A program made the translations under genes and the position numbers. Below are positions 16,328-62,774 of a stretch of DNA of 64,000 nt, in pieces (position 1 is the stretch's first letter; each line of letters starts with the position of its first letter). Origin of the DNA: Sedimenticola sp. (GTDB lineage: Bacteria; Pseudomonadota; Gammaproteobacteria; Chromatiales; Chromatiaceae); the NCBI GenBank assembly GCA_026994195.1, contig JALWRH010000037.1, forward strand, positions 1 to 64,000. Direction: 5' to 3'. The notes beneath the pieces are model-generated. The model was not told the origin of the DNA, made no database searches, and saw nothing but the letters and a program-made list of their open reading frames with translations.

Positions 16328-16354
16328 GGATCGGCCTGACAGGTTATAACTTAA
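16328..16354 (-). promoter_or_regulatory. sigma28 (FliA)-type promoter for flgM
   Basis: Minus strand TTAAGTTA-N11-GCCGATCC versus TAAAGTTT-N11-GCCGATAA. Confidence 0.7.
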
Positions 16355-24115: not shown

Positions 24116-24790
24116 ATGATCATCATGCAAGGTCGGGTTGTTTTCCTGGTGGGCTTGGCACTGTTGGCCAGTATTCTGACGGGTTGCGCCACGCCAAAGG
24201 GAGAAGATCCCAAGTATCTCGCCAGTCAGCCAGTGTACGTGGAGCCGCCCCAACAGAGCACCGGCGCCATCTACCAGACGGCCAGCGCCCTGTCGCTGTT
24301 CGAAGATATCAAGGCAAGGCGCGTGGGCGATATTCTGACCATCGTGCTGAATGAGAACACCAATGCGGAAAAAAAAGCGGATACCACCTTGGACAAATCT
24401 TCGGAAAGCGGCATCGGTGTGCCCAAGTTGTTTGGTCAGACCGTGCCAGAACTGGAGAACAGCCTGAGCGCCGGACACAAGTTTGAGACTACGGGCGACA
24501 GCAAGCAGAGCAACAAACTGGAAGGCAGTATCACGGTTACCGTGGCCAAAGTTTTGAGCAATGGCAATCTGGTGGTGCAGGGGGAAAAGTGGATCACCAT
24601 CAACCATGGTGAGGAATTCATTCGCATCCGGGGCATTGTACGGCCCCTGGATATCGGCCCGGACAACAGCATCTCTTCGACCAAAGTCGCGGACGCCCAG
24701 ATTCTCTACAGTGGCAAAGGAACCATGGCGCGCGCCAACAAGCCTGGCTGGCTCACGGATTTCTTCCTGAGTCCCCTTATGCCTTTCTAG
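24116..24790 (+). CDS. flgH: flagellar L-ring lipoprotein FlgH
   Basis: Lipobox [38 protein letters not shown]. Confidence 0.97.
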
Positions 24791-26930: not shown

Positions 26931-27095
26931 ACAGGCTATTGAAAAACACCGTTTTTCGACAGCCTGTGTGTGGCACAAGGATGTGCCACCATTTTTGATG
27001 GCTGTAAGCCATTGAAAATGAAGGAAGCGGGAAACCGCGTTTTCCGCTTCCGTGGTTGAAAAAGTCCATGGAGGGACTTTTTCAATATCCTGTTA
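26929..27095 (+). repeat. 167-bp MITE-like TIR element, copy A
   Basis: Termini TAACAGGCTATTGAAAAA ... TTTTTCAATATCCTGTTA (18-bp TIR, 1 mismatch); about 93% identical over full length to 60458-60624. Confidence 0.85.
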
Positions 27096-27119
27096 AGTTG
27101 TCATTCATCGTGCCGATAA
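27093..27119 (+). promoter_or_regulatory. sigma28 promoter for flgKL
   Basis: TTAAGTTG-N11-GCCGATAA; -10 identical to consensus; first three -35 bases lie inside the right TIR of copy A. Confidence 0.75.
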
Positions 27120-30231: not shown

Positions 30232-30258
30232 TTAAGTTTTTCTCCCTCCGGTCGATGA
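30232..30258 (+). promoter_or_regulatory. sigma28 promoter for flagellin 1
   Basis: TTAAGTTT-N11-GTCGATGA. Confidence 0.72.
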
Positions 30259-31346: not shown

Positions 31347-31373
31347 TTAAGTTTTCCCAATGTCTGACGATGA
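31347..31373 (+). promoter_or_regulatory. sigma28 promoter for flagellin 2
   Basis: TTAAGTTT-N11-GACGATGA. Confidence 0.68.
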
Positions 31374-44378: not shown

Positions 44379-47348
44379 TCAGGAACAGGCCACCATCCGT
44401 TTGTTTTCCCGTACTGCAAGGAAATGGTGCTGGGCCAAGGGTGGAATCTGGTCGGGCGTCACTGGCCTACTGAACAAATAACCCTGCACCAGATCGCATT
44501 CGGTTTCCTGGAGTACTTCCACTTCCTGATGGTGCTCCACACCTTCGGCTACCACTACATAACCAAGTGCGTGGGCCAGGTCGACGATGGATCGCAGCAA
44601 AATAGCTGAGTTAGCGTCAGCGAACATGTTGGAGATGAATACGCGGTCGATCTTCAGGCAGTCGATGGGCAGTGATTTCAAAGAGGAGAGGGAAGAGTAA
44701 CCTGTACCAAAATCGTCGATGCTGATGCGCACGCCCAGGTCCCGCAGTTTCTGGAATATGCCTGCATTGTTTTCAGTGGTTTGCACCACATTCTCGGTGA
44801 TTTCCAGTTCCAGACTGCTTGGTGAAAGGCCTGTATCTGCCAGTATGGCTTCCACGGTCGGCAACAGTGATGGATCGTTGAAGTGCAGTGGTGATATGTT
44901 GACAGCCATGCGCAGCTCCTGCATACCGCTTTCTTTCCAGCTCGCAACCTGATGGCAAGCCGTTCTCAGAACCCAGTCGCCAATAGATCGAATCATGCCG
45001 ATTTGTTCTGCCATATCGATGAACTGGCCTGGAGGCACCAGGCCTCTCTCGGGATGCTGCCAGCGGATGAGTGCTTCCACTCCCAGCATTTTTCCGTTTT
45101 TCAAATCGATTTGCGGTTGGTAGTGCAGGGTCAGCTGATCCAGCTCAATGGCTCTGCGCAGTTCCTGTTCTACGCGTAGCCGTTCCTCCGCCTCACGGGT
45201 GTGGGTTTTTTCGTAGAACACGTAGCGGTGCCGTCCCTGTTTCTTGGCGGCATACATAGCACTGTCGGCCGCCTTGAGAAGGCTGTTGAGATCCCGCCCA
45301 TCTTCCGGGTAGCGCGCAATACCGATACTGCAGCGGGGCCGCAGTTCTCCAGAAGCCAGGTTTACCGGGCGGTTGATGACTGACAGGCTGCGGCTGGCAA
45401 CTTCTTCAGCATCCCGTTGCTGATGAACCTGGTTTACCAGGATAAAGAATTCATCTCCGCTGATTCGCGCGATGAAATCGGTTTCCCGCACCACGGACTG
45501 CAGGCGTTGGGCAACAGCTTTGAGCAGTTGGTCTCCGACATCATGACCCAGACTGTCATTGATGTCTTTGAAACCGTCCAGGTCCAGGCAGAGAAGGGCA
45601 AACTTCTGATGATGCTTGCGTGCAGAATGAATGGTATCGTTCATGTATTCGTAGAAACAGGTGCGGCTGGCCAGGCCGGTAAGCTCATCGGAGTAGGCCA
45701 GCTGGTGCATTCTGCGCTCTGTTGCCTGTTTCTGAGTGATGTCCTGCACGGTTCCCAGCAGCACTTGTGTGGAGTTGGGTGCCATTCCCAGTTCCTGATG
45801 CACGGTGATGTTCGAACGTCCCTTGACGACCAGACGGTAGTTGAAAGGCTCCATGGTATCGCCTGCTGTTGTGGCGATAATTGCGCTGCGCAAGTAATTG
45901 CGGTCCTTGCTGTGAACATGCGCCAGATAGCGATCCAGTGAGTACTGCTGTTCTTCTGCAGGCAGATTGAGCATTGCCGCCAGGTTTTCCGAGATCTCCA
46001 GACTGTCTGATCGGGAGTCCCATCTCCAGTAACCCAGTCCGGCCATGCGCTGTGCGCTTAGAAGCTTTTCCTGGTTTTCTTTCAGTTTCTTGGCATTCTG
46101 ACTTGCACGCAACTGAAACCGGATGTGTTGCATCAGCAGCGGATAGTTGACCGGCTTGATGACAAAACCTGATGCGCCCGCTGCATAGGCTTTCTCCACG
46201 GATTCATTGTTGTCCAGTCCGGTTACCATGATAACTGGTGTATCTGACAGGGATGGAAACTTGAGCAGTCGAGTACAAACCTCGAAGCCATCCATGTTCT
46301 CCATGACAGCGTCCAGTAACAGAAGATCGGGTTGATGGCGCAATGCCATGGACAGGGCTTCTGTGCCATGACTGGCTTCCAGTACCTTGTATCCTGCTAC
46401 GGACAAAACATCACTGGTAGTCTGGCGGAAAACCGGATCATCATCGACCAATAACAGTTTTTCCCGGGAGGGCTGGGATGAATAGGGACGTGTTTCCTGG
46501 TTGAGCCCCGGGTGTTTCTGTAAAATCCTGCGAAGCGCATCTGCGGCGGGTTTCAGGCTGCTGTCCATTTTTCTGGCGAGCTCCACCAATTCTTCCCATT
46601 TTCCCGCCTGAGAGAGTTTTTCCAGCGTCCGGCAATCGTGAGCAAGTTCGTTGGCTCCAAGGGTTGCGCTGTAGTATTTCAGGTTGTGCGCCAGAAAACC
46701 GAGCTTCTTTCTGTCTCTGCGTCTCAGCGCTTCGCGAATGGCGCTCATGTCCTTTGGCGCTTGCTGCAGAAAATGCGTGATGGTTCGGTCGAGAATGGCG
46801 TTCCCTGTGTCCTGATCCAGTTCTCGCAGCCTTTCAATAGCCCTGCCATCCAGGATCTCACGATTGTTGGATGCCTCTGTTATCGCGAGCTGTTCCCGGG
46901 AGGAGCGCAGGTCGCATTCCTTGATCTGTAGCCAATGAGTAAGCTTTCTTATCAGGTCGGGTTTTTTCAGGGGTTTGTGCAGGAAGTCATCCATCCCTGC
47001 CGTCAGGCAAGCGTTTCTGGTCTTTTCGTCGTCAGACGCTGTGAGTGCAAGAATCGGTGTGGGGGAAATACCCGCAGCTTCTTCCATTTCACGGATTCTG
47101 GTGGTAGCTTCGAGGCCATTGATGCCCGGCATACGGTAATCCATGAGTATCAGGCTGTAGTCTTCTCTTGAAAAAGCCTGAACAGCCTCCTCTCCATTGC
47201 AGACGATATCCAGGTCGTAACCCAGAGAATTCAGCATGACTGTTGCTATCTGCTGGCTGACTTTGTTGTCTTCTGCCAACAGTATTTTGGCGGTGCCGCC
47301 TGACATATGCTGTTTCTCCAATCCGGTCTGAGGAGGATTCTTGTCCAT
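44379..47348 (-). CDS. REC-HPt-REC-PAS-GGDEF-EAL hybrid c-di-GMP signalling protein
   Basis: Start at MDKNPPQTGLEKQHMSGGTAKILLAEDNKVSQ; HPt HNLKYYSATLGA; second REC KLLLVDDDPVFRQT; SGDEF; EALIRWQHP and DDFGTGYSS. Confidence 0.92.
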   Translation of the reverse strand: MDKNPPQTGLEKQHMSGGTAKILLAEDNKVSQQIATVMLNSLGYDLDIVCNGEEAVQAFSREDYSLILMDYRMPGINGLEATTRIREMEEAAGISPTPILALTASDDEKTRNACLTAGMDDFLHKPLKKPDLIRKLTHWLQIKECDLRSSREQLAITEASNNREILDGRAIERLRELDQDTGNAILDRTITHFLQQAPKDMSAIREALRRRDRKKLGFLAHNLKYYSATLGANELAHDCRTLEKLSQAGKWEELVELARKMDSSLKPAADALRRILQKHPGLNQETRPYSSQPSREKLLLVDDDPVFRQTTSDVLSVAGYKVLEASHGTEALSMALRHQPDLLLLDAVMENMDGFEVCTRLLKFPSLSDTPVIMVTGLDNNESVEKAYAAGASGFVIKPVNYPLLMQHIRFQLRASQNAKKLKENQEKLLSAQRMAGLGYWRWDSRSDSLEISENLAAMLNLPAEEQQYSLDRYLAHVHSKDRNYLRSAIIATTAGDTMEPFNYRLVVKGRSNITVHQELGMAPNSTQVLLGTVQDITQKQATERRMHQLAYSDELTGLASRTCFYEYMNDTIHSARKHHQKFALLCLDLDGFKDINDSLGHDVGDQLLKAVAQRLQSVVRETDFIARISGDEFFILVNQVHQQRDAEEVASRSLSVINRPVNLASGELRPRCSIGIARYPEDGRDLNSLLKAADSAMYAAKKQGRHRYVFYEKTHTREAEERLRVEQELRRAIELDQLTLHYQPQIDLKNGKMLGVEALIRWQHPERGLVPPGQFIDMAEQIGMIRSIGDWVLRTACHQVASWKESGMQELRMAVNISPLHFNDPSLLPTVEAILADTGLSPSSLELEITENVVQTTENNAGIFQKLRDLGVRISIDDFGTGYSSLSSLKSLPIDCLKIDRVFISNMFADANSAILLRSIVDLAHALGYVVVAEGVEHHQEVEVLQETECDLVQGYLFSRPVTPDQIPPLAQHHFLAVRENKRMVACS

Positions 47349-47417
47349 GATGCTGCGCCCGTAGCTGTGGTGTGTGTTTCTTACTGTTAACAGAACAAAT
47401 GTTGTTGCCCGAAGAGA

Positions 47418-47444
47418 TAGTCGGCCGCATCTGTACTTCCTTAA
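47418..47444 (-). promoter_or_regulatory. sigma28-like promoter for the GGDEF-EAL gene
   Basis: Minus strand TTAAGGAA-N11-GCCGACTA; good -10, weak -35, correct 11-nt spacing. Confidence 0.4.
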
Positions 47445-58837: not shown

Positions 58838-59729
58838 AACAGCACTGGCAAAAAAACGGCCCAGTGATCAGGCCGTGGGATTGAGGAAAATGAAACAGCA
58901 CAGGCCTGTCAAAGTGATTGCGGTTACCGGAGGGAAAGGAGGTGTGGGCAAGACCAATGTGGCAGTCAATCTGTCTCTTTCTCTTGCAGCCACAGGTAAC
59001 GACGTCATGTTGCTGGATGCGGATTTCGGTTTGGCGAATGTGGATGTGCAACTGGGGCTCAGTCCTGAGTACGATCTTTCACATCTTGTTTCAGGAGAAA
59101 GGAATCTCGAGGAGATCATCATCGACGGCCCTGGCGGGATCAAGATCATTCCCGCTTCTTCGGGGATCTCCCGCATGGCGGATCTTACACAGAGGGAGCG
59201 GGCGGGGATCATTCATGCTTTCAGTGAACTCAGCTGTGATGTCGACTACCTGATCGTGGATACTTCTGCGGGAATATCGGATTCAGTGGTCAGTTTCTGC
59301 AAGGCTTCTCATGAGGTTCTGGTGGTGGTCTGTGATGAACCGGCTTCCATAACGGATGCTTATGCGCTGATAAAGGTCATGAATCGTGAGCATGGCGTGG
59401 ATCATTTTCATGTACTGGCCAACATGGTGTATTCAAACCGACAGGGCACCGAGCTGTACAACAAGCTTTCTCTGGCGGCCAATCATTTTCTGGATGCAAG
59501 CCTGAGTTTTCTGGGAATCATTCCCCAGGATGAGCGTCTTAGGCAGGCGGTGCAGAAACAGCGGGCCGTGGTGGCTTCGTATCCCAGCAGCCCGTCCGCT
59601 ACAGCCTTCCGCAAGGTGGCTGGCCATGTCGAAAACTGGCCGGGAGCGCAAAAAGCGGGTGGCCAGCTGGAGTTCTTCGTTGAACGTCTTATCAACTATG
59701 AGAATGAACTGGGTGGATTGGAATCATGA
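58824..59729 (+). CDS. flhG: MinD-like flagellar number regulator FlhG/FleN
   Basis: VIAVTGGKGGVGKTNVAVNLSLSLA deviant Walker A; adjacent to flhF. Confidence 0.96.
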   Translation: MHMYETALAKKRPSDQAVGLRKMKQHRPVKVIAVTGGKGGVGKTNVAVNLSLSLAATGNDVMLLDADFGLANVDVQLGLSPEYDLSHLVSGERNLEEIIIDGPGGIKIIPASSGISRMADLTQRERAGIIHAFSELSCDVDYLIVDTSAGISDSVVSFCKASHEVLVVVCDEPASITDAYALIKVMNREHGVDHFHVLANMVYSNRQGTELYNKLSLAANHFLDASLSFLGIIPQDERLRQAVQKQRAVVASYPSSPSATAFRKVAGHVENWPGAQKAGGQLEFFVERLINYENELGGLES

Positions 59730-60460
59730 ATATGGCGGCTATGTATCAGAAGGCTTCTGAGCAGCCAGATTATGAAGAGGTGGTTGCCAAGCATACGTCG
59801 CTGGTGAAGCGCGTAGCCTATCATCTGATGGCGCGCATGCCTTCCAGTGTGCAGATAGATGACCTGATTCAGGCGGGAATGATTGGACTCCTGGAGGCGA
59901 TCAACAATTTCGATCCATCCAAGGGGGCCAGTTTTGAAACTTATGCACGCATACGGATCCGGGGCTCGATGATCGATGAAGTACGGCGCGGAGATTGGAC
60001 GCCCAGATCTGTGTACCACAAGGCCAGAAAGCTGGCCGAGGCCATGCGTGCCGTGGAATACCGTGAGCAACGGCCGGCCCGAGCCGAAGAGGTGGCTGCT
60101 GAACTGGGGTTGGATCTCGCTTCTTACAACAAGATTCTTGCAGACACCAACGGTTGTCATGTTCTCAGTTATGACGATTTGTCTGTGGACAGTTGGGGAC
60201 AGGAAGACGAAGCGGCTGCGGAAGAAAATGGACTGCTGCCTGAGCTGCAGAAGAATATGTTCAAGGAAGGCCTGTCAGAGGCCATTGCCAACCTGCCGGA
60301 GCGGGAGAAACTCGTACTCTCACTCTACTATGACGATGAATTCAACCTTCGCGAGATTGGAGAAGTGCTGGGCGTAACAGAAGCCAGGGTATGTCAGATT
60401 CACGGGCAGGCTTTGACCAGACTGCGTTCCAGGATGCGGGACTGGATCGAGGATGACTAG
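59726..60460 (+). CDS. fliA: flagellar sigma factor sigma28
   Basis: 244 aa; HTSLVKRVAYHLMARMPSSVQIDDLIQAGMIGLLEAINNFDPSKGASFETYARIRIRGSMIDEVR. Confidence 0.98.
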   Translation: MNMAAMYQKASEQPDYEEVVAKHTSLVKRVAYHLMARMPSSVQIDDLIQAGMIGLLEAINNFDPSKGASFETYARIRIRGSMIDEVRRGDWTPRSVYHKARKLAEAMRAVEYREQRPARAEEVAAELGLDLASYNKILADTNGCHVLSYDDLSVDSWGQEDEAAAEENGLLPELQKNMFKEGLSEAIANLPEREKLVLSLYYDDEFNLREIGEVLGVTEARVCQIHGQALTRLRSRMRDWIEDD

Positions 60461-60624
60461 CAGGCTGTTGAAAAACACCGTTTTTCAACAGCCTGTGTGC
60501 GGTACAGGGATGTGTCGCCATTTTCGATGGCTGCAAGCCATTGAAAATGAAGGAAGCGGGAAACCGCGTTTTCCGCTTCCGTGGTTGAAAAAGTCCATGG
60601 AGGGACTTTTTCAACATCCTGCTA
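60458..60624 (+). repeat. 167-bp MITE-like TIR element, copy B
   Basis: Termini TAGCAGGCTGTTGAAAAA ... TTTTTCAACATCCTGCTA; same length as copy A with about 12 differences, all transitions; overlaps the fliA TAG stop. Confidence 0.85.
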
Positions 60625-60667: not shown

Positions 60668-60841
60668 ATGATGTCTAATGCCAGAATCAAGCGCCTGTTT
60701 CCCATATGGCCTGTAGCGTCAGCCCTACCCGTGGGGGAAAAAGCCAAAAGAAAGGTGAACACCCCGACCGCTCCCAAGCCGGACAAAAAGAAGACGAACC
60801 CTGGTCCGAATGGGAAGAGGCATATTGACACCTATGTTTGA
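60668..60841 (+). CDS. 57-aa small basic protein (absent from ORF track)
   Basis: RBS GGGAGG, ATG; MMSNARIKRLFPIWPVASALPVGEKAKRKVNTPTAPKPDKKKTNPGPNGKRHIDTYV*; stop 10 nt before the next CDS. Confidence 0.6.
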   Translation: MMSNARIKRLFPIWPVASALPVGEKAKRKVNTPTAPKPDKKKTNPGPNGKRHIDTYV

Positions 60842-60851
60842 AGGATATGGC

Positions 60852-62001
60852 AATGTTCAGAAAAGATAAGGACATATCAGCAGAAGAAGCCGGCCAGGCG
60901 TCTTTCTCTCCGGCATCAGGCTATCAGGATCCAGGTCAGAGCGAAAATGATCGATCCTCCCGCGGGAGACTTGACCTGACCGAGGACAGTGTGGATTTTC
61001 GTTCAGTGCTGGGTACGGTTGCCACTGATCAGACTGACGAAAACACATCTGAAGGCGCCCAGCCGGTCAAAGGTCATAAGGATCTCAATATCAGCAGTGT
61101 CATCACCCGTATTCGGGATGAAGGTCCGGCAGCTTCCCGCCAGGACAGGAAATTCCGGTTGGAGCAATACCGGAAAAATGAAGCGGTTGATGATCCCGTG
61201 CAGAAGGAAGCCATAACCACTGAACAGGAACCGGCCTTGACAGCTTCTGAGATCACCCTGCTGGCAAAGTCCGCAGCAGAAGAGCTGCTGGCTTCCCGGG
61301 AGGAACCAACAGATCCTCAGGGGGGCGGCGCAGCGGGGAAGTGGGTTGTGGGGATGTTGGTGTTACTGCTTGCTGTTGGCGGTTATTTTCTTTACAAGAC
61401 CAACAGTGATCTTTCCCTGGCCAGAACAAACATTGCCCAGCTCAGCACCCGCTTGTTCAAGGCAGAAGAGGCCGTCGCCGGTCTGCGGCGTCAGATTTCC
61501 ACCAACACCAACCGACTTCAGTCTGCGTATACACGGGACAGGCTGCGAAAGGAACTAAGCGAATATCGCCATCTGATGAAAGAGGAAATGGACCAGCGGC
61601 TCAATGAAATGATGCTGTTTCAGGAGGTGTATTCGGCAGCAGGCTATGGTCCTGCACTTGTCGCATCGGAGAAAAGTGGGCCTGCTGAATCTGCTGCAAC
61701 GCCCGCCTCGAAAGCCGCTGGCGACAGGATAAAAAAATCTGCCCATGGGAAGGGAGGGGACTGGCAAGTCTACTTGGCATCTTACGGTACCCGGACCCTG
61801 GCGACAAAGGCCTTGAAGCGGTTTGTTGTCACAGCGCCCCGGGCAGTTGTCCAGTCCGCCAGGGTCAAGGGGAAAAAAGTCTATCGCGTGGTGGTGCCGG
61901 GCTTTTCTGACAAGAAAGAGGCCGGGGACTATCTGGGTGCAATATCCGGTAAACTGGGATTGAAAGGCGCCTGGATAGGGCGCCGCGCTGCAAACACTTG
62001 A
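60852..62001 (+). CDS. membrane-anchored SPOR-domain protein
   Basis: Single TM (WVVGMLVLLLAVGGYFLY), coiled coil, C-terminal SPOR DWQVYLASYGTRTLATKALKRFVVTAPRAVVQSARVKGKKVYRVVVPGFSDKKEAGDYL. Confidence 0.82.
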
Positions 62002-62063
62002 ACGCCTGCCGCGATGCTCCCGCATTGGGGGCGGCAATGCCAACTGGATCACGTTATCGGGGT

Positions 62064-62090
62064 TAAAGTTCCCCCGCAGCATGCCGAACA
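62064..62090 (+). promoter_or_regulatory. sigma28 promoter upstream of uncharacterised lipoprotein
   Basis: TAAAGTTC-N11-GCCGAACA; 7/8 at -35, 6/8 at -10, exact 11-nt spacing; 33 nt before the ATG. Confidence 0.65.
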
Positions 62091-62123
62091 GTCTGTGTAA
62101 GGAAATCTGAAAGGACAATCGGC

Positions 62124-62774
62124 ATGAAAAGGCATTGCTTGGCAAATCAACATTTAGACTCGCCTGTTCCGCGGACGGGTTCCCGCCTCCCTGCATTGGG
62201 TACTGCCACCCTGATCTTGGCCACGTTGATGATGAGTGCCTGTGCTTCCAAGATTCCCGCCAATCAATGGACCAGGATTGCTGCAAGTCATTATCCCGGC
62301 ATGACTGACATCCACCAGGAGGTCAACGTCATAGAAGGCATCTATGAAGGGCAGAAAATCGCCGGTTACATTGATATGAACGATCAATGGGTGGAACTCA
62401 GCCGGCGCCCGGTGAAGGATCTGGATGCGGCCGAAGCAGGGCAGATAGCTGACGCGATAACCACCGGTGTAGGTTTGTCCCAGGGGCTGGCCGAAACCAA
62501 CCCCATCGGTATAGGTGTATTGCCGTTGAAGTTTGCATTGAATGACTATGCGGAAAAACAGGGCGTCAGGGAATGTGGTCAGATAAAGCGTTTCCTGTCG
62601 GCTACGGGTTGGGGCGGGGCTGCCGCGAATATCATCACCCTGTCTGCGGGGGCATTCACGGGAGGAAGCGCTGCTGCTGGTTTGCTTGTGGGCACCCTGG
62701 CTTGGAACCAGCTTCCTGGCGCCGATGGCTGTGTAAACTGGCTGGGACAGCCCGTGGAGTTGAGCACACTCTAG
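62124..62774 (+). CDS. uncharacterised lipoprotein
   Basis: 216 aa; lipobox-like LMMSACAS; C-terminal GWGGAAANIITLSAGAFTGGSAAAGLLVGTLAW Gly/Ala hydrophobic stretch. Confidence 0.7.
   Translation: MKRHCLANQHLDSPVPRTGSRLPALGTATLILATLMMSACASKIPANQWTRIAASHYPGMTDIHQEVNVIEGIYEGQKIAGYIDMNDQWVELSRRPVKDLDAAEAGQIADAITTGVGLSQGLAETNPIGIGVLPLKFALNDYAEKQGVRECGQIKRFLSATGWGGAAANIITLSAGAFTGGSAAAGLLVGTLAWNQLPGADGCVNWLGQPVELSTL

Follow-up and report, generated by a model that had tools for sequence, protein, structure and literature searches.

A lipoprotein gene beside fliA in Sedimenticola is a probable lineage-specific member of the late flagellar (sigma28) regulon

Results

In a marine Sedimenticola bacterium, the lipoprotein gene adjoins flagellar genes. 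The window, meaning the whole stretch of 64,000 nucleotides that was analyzed, is a flagellar gene cluster extending from flgM to fliA. The genes of the cluster were named by reading, and flgM, flgK, fliC, and fliA were identified by family search as well. The sigma28 gene fliA is at 59726-60460 on the + strand (NF005413, 289 bits against a cut-off of 201), 1.66 kb upstream of an open reading frame for a 216-amino acid lipoprotein (62124-62774, +). A conserved small open reading frame of 57 amino acids and a gene for a SPOR-domain membrane protein (60838-62001, +; PF05036, 27.8 bits, cut-off 21) lie between them, in that order. The SPOR gene ends 122 nucleotides before the start of the lipoprotein gene, on the same strand, and its counterpart follows fliA in every genome of the genus that was read, whether the lipoprotein is present or absent. 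The SPOR protein has a conserved motif around DLNISSVIxRIRDEGPA. The 57-amino acid frame (60668-60841, +) encodes RIKRLFPIWPVA...KRHIDTYV, and its counterparts read PLLPVWPVAP...RKHIDLYA. Since these are found in the same place in nearly all members of the genus examined, it is probably a real small protein of the flagellar cluster.

Within the genus, the lipoprotein gene occurs only in genomes that have fliA. Orthologs are present in ten of the 15 genus genomes, including that of the window, and the nine others have 62-78% identity. No full-length homolog was found outside the genus among 92 relatives and 210 family genomes, the latter adding a single distant partial match, and tblastn against plasmid and phage records found no homolog. 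Co-occurrence with flagella was proposed as a check in the original prediction, and the genomes agree with it: fliA is found in 14 of the 15, all ten carriers have it, and G012, the only genome with no fliA above the cut-off, also lacks the lipoprotein gene. The prediction also held that homologs in non-flagellated relatives without the promoter motif would speak against it; a search for these found none, and every full-length homolog is in a genome that has fliA and belongs to one clade. The gene is not required for a flagellum, as it is absent from four genomes of the genus that have fliA. In a tree of FliA the carriers form a single clade with support of 100/100 (G002 is not in the tree), so that the gene was either gained at the base of this clade or lost in the sister clade. 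The gene is beside fliA in the window genome and in all six others that have both on one contig.

A sigma28-type promoter match precedes the lipoprotein gene. The site at 62064-62090 (+) reads TAAAGTTC-CCCCGCAGCAT-GCCGAACA. Its -35 element (62064-62071) agrees with the consensus TAAAGTTT in seven of eight bases, and the spacer is exactly 11 nucleotides. The -10 element (62083-62090) agrees with GCCGATAA in six of eight, keeping CGA and having ACA instead of TAA as its last three bases. It ends 33 nucleotides before the ATG at 62124, and the predicted transcription start is near 62097. The spacing, the -35 match, and the distance to a lipoprotein reading frame of 216 amino acids are as originally predicted; the weaker -10 element had gone unmentioned.

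Searches with the E. coli consensus and with a matrix specific to the genus both single out this site. Allowing up to three mismatches to the consensus, there are four sites in the 64 kb against 0.16 expected, and none of 100 shuffled sequences reached four. The other three sites, which the matrix also finds, precede flgK (27093-27119, +), the first flagellin gene (30232-30258, +), and the second flagellin gene (31347-31373, +); a fourth reference site, with -10 element GCCGATCC, belongs to flgM (16328-16354, -). The matrix was trained on 12 promoters, taken from this genome and its genus mates, whose genes are late beyond dispute (fliC, flgK, flgM, cheA, and pomA), leaving out the lipoprotein-gene site. 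A site in G007 (L072), for whose gene product Pfam shows only PAS domains in the part of the sequence covered, was also excluded from the final matrix, and this did not change the rank of the lipoprotein site. That rank is fifth among 127,948 window positions, after only fliC, fliC, flgK, and flgM, all four of which were in the training set. The score of 16.5 is below that of every canonical site (17.5-25.5 for the training sites), and 200 random 64-kb windows contain 18 sites that score at least as high, or 0.09 per window by chance. The score, the rank, and the random windows together indicate a genuine but weaker sigma28 match.

The promoter core is conserved in all ten orthologs while the spacer has diverged. 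Each has TAAAG[A/T]T-N12-G[C/T]CGA[A/C]C[A/T] at fixed spacing, 32-34 nucleotides upstream of the start codon (counted in G006 from the ATG and not from a GTG 6 nucleotides earlier). TAAAG, the G-x-C-G-A core of the -10 element, and the C at its position 7 are invariant, the 11-nucleotide spacer is kept, and the last three bases are ACA, CCA, or CCT. Mean pairwise identity is 0.93 for the -35 element and 0.91 for the -10 element against 0.41 for the spacer. All nine core columns are invariant compared to nine of 51 other non-coding columns (Fisher p = 3e-6, a guide value since the sequences are related). The core was retained in G001 as well, where a repeat now takes the place of all upstream DNA as far as the -35 element.

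A second conserved element, GCCAAC-N4-TCAC (62039-62052, +), is found 10-11 nucleotides upstream of the -35 element. It is exact in seven of the eight orthologs with native upstream DNA, and G004 has GCCGAC; in G001 the repeat takes its place, and in G008 it would lie beyond the contig. The combination of this box with the -35 element occurs once per genome in the four genomes searched, always at the lipoprotein gene, while the reversed control gives no match. The box may be a contact site for an activator or for the polymerase. No conserved RNA structure is predicted in the leader.

Related sites are found upstream of motility and signaling genes throughout these genomes. The promoter survey of whole genomes consisted of pattern searches. 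The loose pattern TWAAG-N14-GNCGANNA matches 12 times in the window genome compared to 22 times for the reversed control; a loose match alone is thus weak evidence, and the genome-wide count was rejected as evidence in its own right. Eight of the 12 matches are directly upstream of flgK, two fliC genes, cheA, two HDOD genes, a response-regulator gene, and the lipoprotein gene. Of 23 matches in four further members of the genus that have fliA, 15 are upstream of flgM, fliC, cheA, pomA, HDOD, GGDEF, PAS, T2SSE, and lipoprotein genes, giving 23 of 35 just upstream of motility or signaling genes, the lipoprotein gene included, in the five genomes pooled. G012, which has no FliA above the cut-off, has one match, within a long reading frame. 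The -10 element of flgM is GCCGATCC in the window genome and GCCGACCA in G006, and the latter is also found at one HDOD gene of the window genome, which shows that a -10 element ending in the manner of CGA[A/C]C is normal for the genus.

The protein has the sequence features of a lipoprotein. Residues 1-39 (62124-62243 with the following cysteine, +) are a predicted signal peptide, with the lipobox MMSA-C at a putatively lipidated Cys40 and Ala at +2. The leader is long, has a hydropathy of 1.69 over residues 22-40, and is the least conserved part of the protein; Cys40 is nevertheless invariant in the ten orthologs. At -3 the lipobox has M, T, A, S, or V in place of the usual Leu; it matches only a relaxed pattern and so is an acceptable lipobox, though not a classical one. 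A signal peptide and a lipobox with an invariant cysteine, by which bacterial lipoproteins are recognized, are both present. The orthologs have Ala or Thr at +2, and these residues are compatible with outer-membrane sorting. Lipidation and an outer-membrane location are likely on this basis.

Two regions follow the lipid anchor in the predicted structure. Residues 41-100 (62244-62423, +; KIPANQW...HQEVNVIEG...GYID...WVEL) are modeled by AlphaFold2 as a small domain of one helix (residues 46-56) and four strands (residues 61-96), with modest confidence (blocks of pLDDT 53-76). This domain is found only in this genus. Residues 101-206 (62424-62741, +) are predicted from AlphaFold2 and distant relatives to form a hydrophobic, Gly/Ala-rich domain of four helices, with the conserved motif QxxDxxTTxxxLSxGxxExNP and the cysteines Cys151 and Cys203. 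The model of this region from 13 sequences has a mean pLDDT of 74 and pTM of 0.66, a level at which two of the five models agree. The hydropathy of the C-terminal helices is modest (0.99-1.45), leaving membrane insertion of the domain uncertain. The AlphaFold2 model of the full-length protein has a pLDDT of 42 and pTM of 0.32, and its Foldseek matches (best E 0.4) were set aside.

The protein is recognized by no family model in the databases searched. The original prediction recognized no family, and indeed no Pfam or NCBIfam model is above its cut-off, including those of known flagellar lipoproteins (FlgH, FlgP, YecR, and similar). The window has its own flgH, identified by reading, at 24116-24790. 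Sequence searches of solved structures and of PHROGs found no match, and for the model of the C-terminal domain (pLDDT 74) neither the PDB nor viral structures gave a fold match with E < 1. Glycine-zipper Pfam models of the SlyB type are absent from the matches with E <= 1 of the protein and its orthologs. Membership in DUF5658 (PF18902) was rejected, as the score is 14.1 bits against a gathering cut-off of 25.2. Nine of the ten orthologs match this model weakly over about 22-42 residues (best E 0.003), all below the gathering score, and profile comparison with one DUF5658 protein gives a probability of 1%. The likeness is to the D-xx-TT-x(3)-L-xx-G-xx-E-x-NP stretch of the first helix.

The C-terminal domain recurs in distant relatives. 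It is found in two other bacterial lipoproteins, a short one whose host is of the same taxonomic family but a different genus (L064) and one whose host is of the same class but a different family (L066), and on a viral contig (L068). In all three, by reading, one cysteine precedes helix 3 and one follows helix 4, corresponding to Cys151 and Cys203; the automatic alignment places the second cysteine consistently only in part. Judging from the sequence and the medium-confidence model, a disulfide between Cys151 and Cys203 probably clamps the four-helix segment. Lipoproteins with this domain and the conserved cysteine pair outline an unnamed family. The viral member is a short lipoprotein (L068, 4863-5324) that adjoins large tail-like genes and for which neither PHROGs nor phage records gave a match.

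Discussion

The lipoprotein gene is probably a late flagellar gene encoding an envelope protein. We give a probability of about 0.7 to the reading that it belongs to the sigma28 regulon and encodes an envelope lipoprotein, with an accessory role for the flagellum as its leading, unproven part. The regulon membership originally predicted is well supported at the sequence level by the promoter core in every ortholog, by the occurrence of the motif also at fliC, flgK, flgM, cheA, and pomA in the genus, by the proximity to fliA, and by the co-occurrence with FliA. On these grounds it is highly probable that the gene depends on FliA as a lineage-specific late (class 3) member of the regulon, and the lipoprotein is very probably made only while the flagellum is being finished.

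The site can be compared to characterized FliA promoters. Like those of aer, tsr, and fliC in E. coli (Fitzgerald et al. 2014, PMC4183435), it has a TAAAG -35 element, an 11-nucleotide spacer, and a GCCGA -10 element, but it differs from them in the -10 end (ACA, CCA, or CCT), in the extra conserved upstream box, and in driving a gene of no known family. The absence of the T and A of CGATAA counts against sigma28 control. In E. coli, aer is FliA-dependent with the promoter TAAAGATA-N11-GCCGACAT, and its expression falls from 225 to 12 in a fliA mutant; tsr, with GCCGAAAA, is FliA-dependent and falls from 630 to 9 (PMC4183435). A base other than T at the sixth position of the -10 element is thus functional there. 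The -35 element of most orthologs, TAAAGATA, is that of aer, and the aer -10 element, GCCGACAT, likewise lacks the T. Many intragenic FliA sites in E. coli show no regulation (PMC4183435), a caveat that is tempered here because the site is intergenic and conserved.

Two alternatives deny the site a role as a sigma28 promoter. The conserved block could serve sigma70 or another polymerase acting through the GCCAAC-N4-TCAC box, or the gene could be transcribed by read-through from the SPOR gene. The conservation of the box, the imperfect -10 element, and the nearness of the SPOR gene on the same strand would fit this, but the most conserved columns are TAAAG and GxCGA at sigma28 spacing, the core matches the fliC, flgM, and cheA promoters of the same genomes, G001 keeps the core with no box, and there is no conserved RNA structure. 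This alternative is improbable. That the match is a functionless chance resemblance is far less probable still: the excess of loose matches in the reversed control (22 against 12) means that a match by itself is no proof, but chance would hardly keep the core in ten of ten orthologs with a diverged spacer, nor put 23 of 35 loose matches in five fliA-bearing genomes just upstream of motility or signaling genes.

Sigma28 control would tie production of the lipoprotein to flagellar assembly. After export of FlgM through the finished hook, RNA polymerase with FliA would start near 62097 from the TAAAG-N14-GCCGA promoter, and the lipoprotein would be produced together with flagellin, CheA, and HDOD and GGDEF signaling proteins. 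After export the product would be lipidated at Cys40, and the Ala at +2 would most probably direct it to the outer membrane. The small alpha-beta domain would then be in the periplasm, and the four-helix segment, judging from its sequence and model, would pack against or into the membrane. The likeliest job would be an accessory one, stabilizing the envelope where it surrounds the rotating flagellum or its motor, or sealing it there. This is the leading idea for its function, and we hold it tentatively. The roles originally suggested (motility, sheath, L-ring, or surface sensing) are neither favored nor contradicted by the results: nothing in the sequence, structure, or family searches connects the protein with a particular flagellar substructure, or physically with the flagellum. 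A more specific proposal is that the lipoprotein is a new protein of this clade, timed by sigma28, that either forms part of the flagellar base at the outer membrane or guards it, and in which a lipid-anchored four-helix membrane domain recruited from a small lipoprotein family also present in a virus is combined with a genus-specific periplasmic domain; in this full form it is rather unlikely.

FliA may instead transcribe the gene for a surface protein of the motile phase that acts outside the flagellar apparatus, in sensing, adhesion, envelope remodeling, or phage protection, and whose gene shares the flagellar control because swimming cells benefit from the protein. This is a serious possibility, if short of even odds. 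Other sigma28-type sites precede signaling genes (HDOD, GGDEF, and response regulator-GGDEF-EAL), the gene is dispensable within the genus, and the C-terminal domain exists as a stand-alone lipoprotein on the viral contig and in the L064 genome, which has no visible flagellar link. Against it, the gene is always beside fliA where this can be judged, and the protein has no homolog among defense, adhesion, or sensing families.

Other lipoproteins offer partial parallels for an accessory role in the flagellum. FapH (HP0838) of Helicobacter pylori is a lipoprotein tied to flagellar genes and linked to flgP; it assembles into a ring at the outer membrane, preserves the barrier during rotation, and is dispensable for motility in soft agar (PMC11756786). 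It is the nearest functional precedent and serves as an analogue for the accessory hypothesis, with no claim of homology; its host belongs to the phylum Campylobacterota. We know of no family shared by FapH and the window lipoprotein. In the SlyB and 17-kDa antigen glycine-zipper lipoproteins, a helical hairpin rich in Gly and Ala comes after the lipid anchor. The anchor and the Gly/Ala-rich helices are alike in the window protein, but it has four predicted helices and an extra alpha-beta domain. YecR of E. coli is also a lipoprotein. Its gene is controlled by FlhDC in that organism (PMC4183435). The window gene resembles it in encoding a lipoprotein of uncharacterized function under flagellar control, but the protein has no match to the YecR family in Pfam.

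For a group of sulfur-cycle bacteria that is related to chemosymbionts, the gene is a concrete and testable new entry in the late flagellar regulon. The sites described here suggest that sigma28 of this genus tolerates CGA[A/C]CA in the -10 element, and searches with the strict consensus would miss such promoters. If the protein does sit at the flagellar base, it would be one more lineage-specific outer-membrane part of the motor, comparable to the FapH ring of Helicobacter.

Several other genes have sigma28-type sites. In the window, the response-regulator gene counted among the loose matches is a response regulator/Hpt-GGDEF-EAL gene (within 44379-47444, -, beginning near 47348); it has the sigma28-like site TTAAGGAAGTACAGATGCGGCCGACTA at 47444-47418, which ranks sixth with the matrix. 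Elsewhere in the same genome, two HDOD genes (L023 and L024, on contigs C102 and C113) have sigma28-type promoters about 26-45 nucleotides upstream, and HDOD genes of G006, G007, and G009 have similar sites, suggesting that HDOD proteins are part of the flagellar regulon here. A gene for an MshE/PilB-like T2SSE ATPase in G009 (L086, contig C10) has the strong site TAAAGAAACCCCCCTTTTTGCCGATAA just upstream, and a coupling between pili and flagella is possible.

A palindromic repeat, TTGAAAAAGTCC-ATGGAG-GGACTTTTTCAA, lies inside a longer repeat at two places in the window. One copy (27056-27085) adjoins the flgK sigma28 site on its 5' side, and the other (60585-60614) is in the interval from fliA to the SPOR gene. 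In G001 the palindromic repeat abuts the -35 element of the lipoprotein promoter (L005, about 1300-1348).
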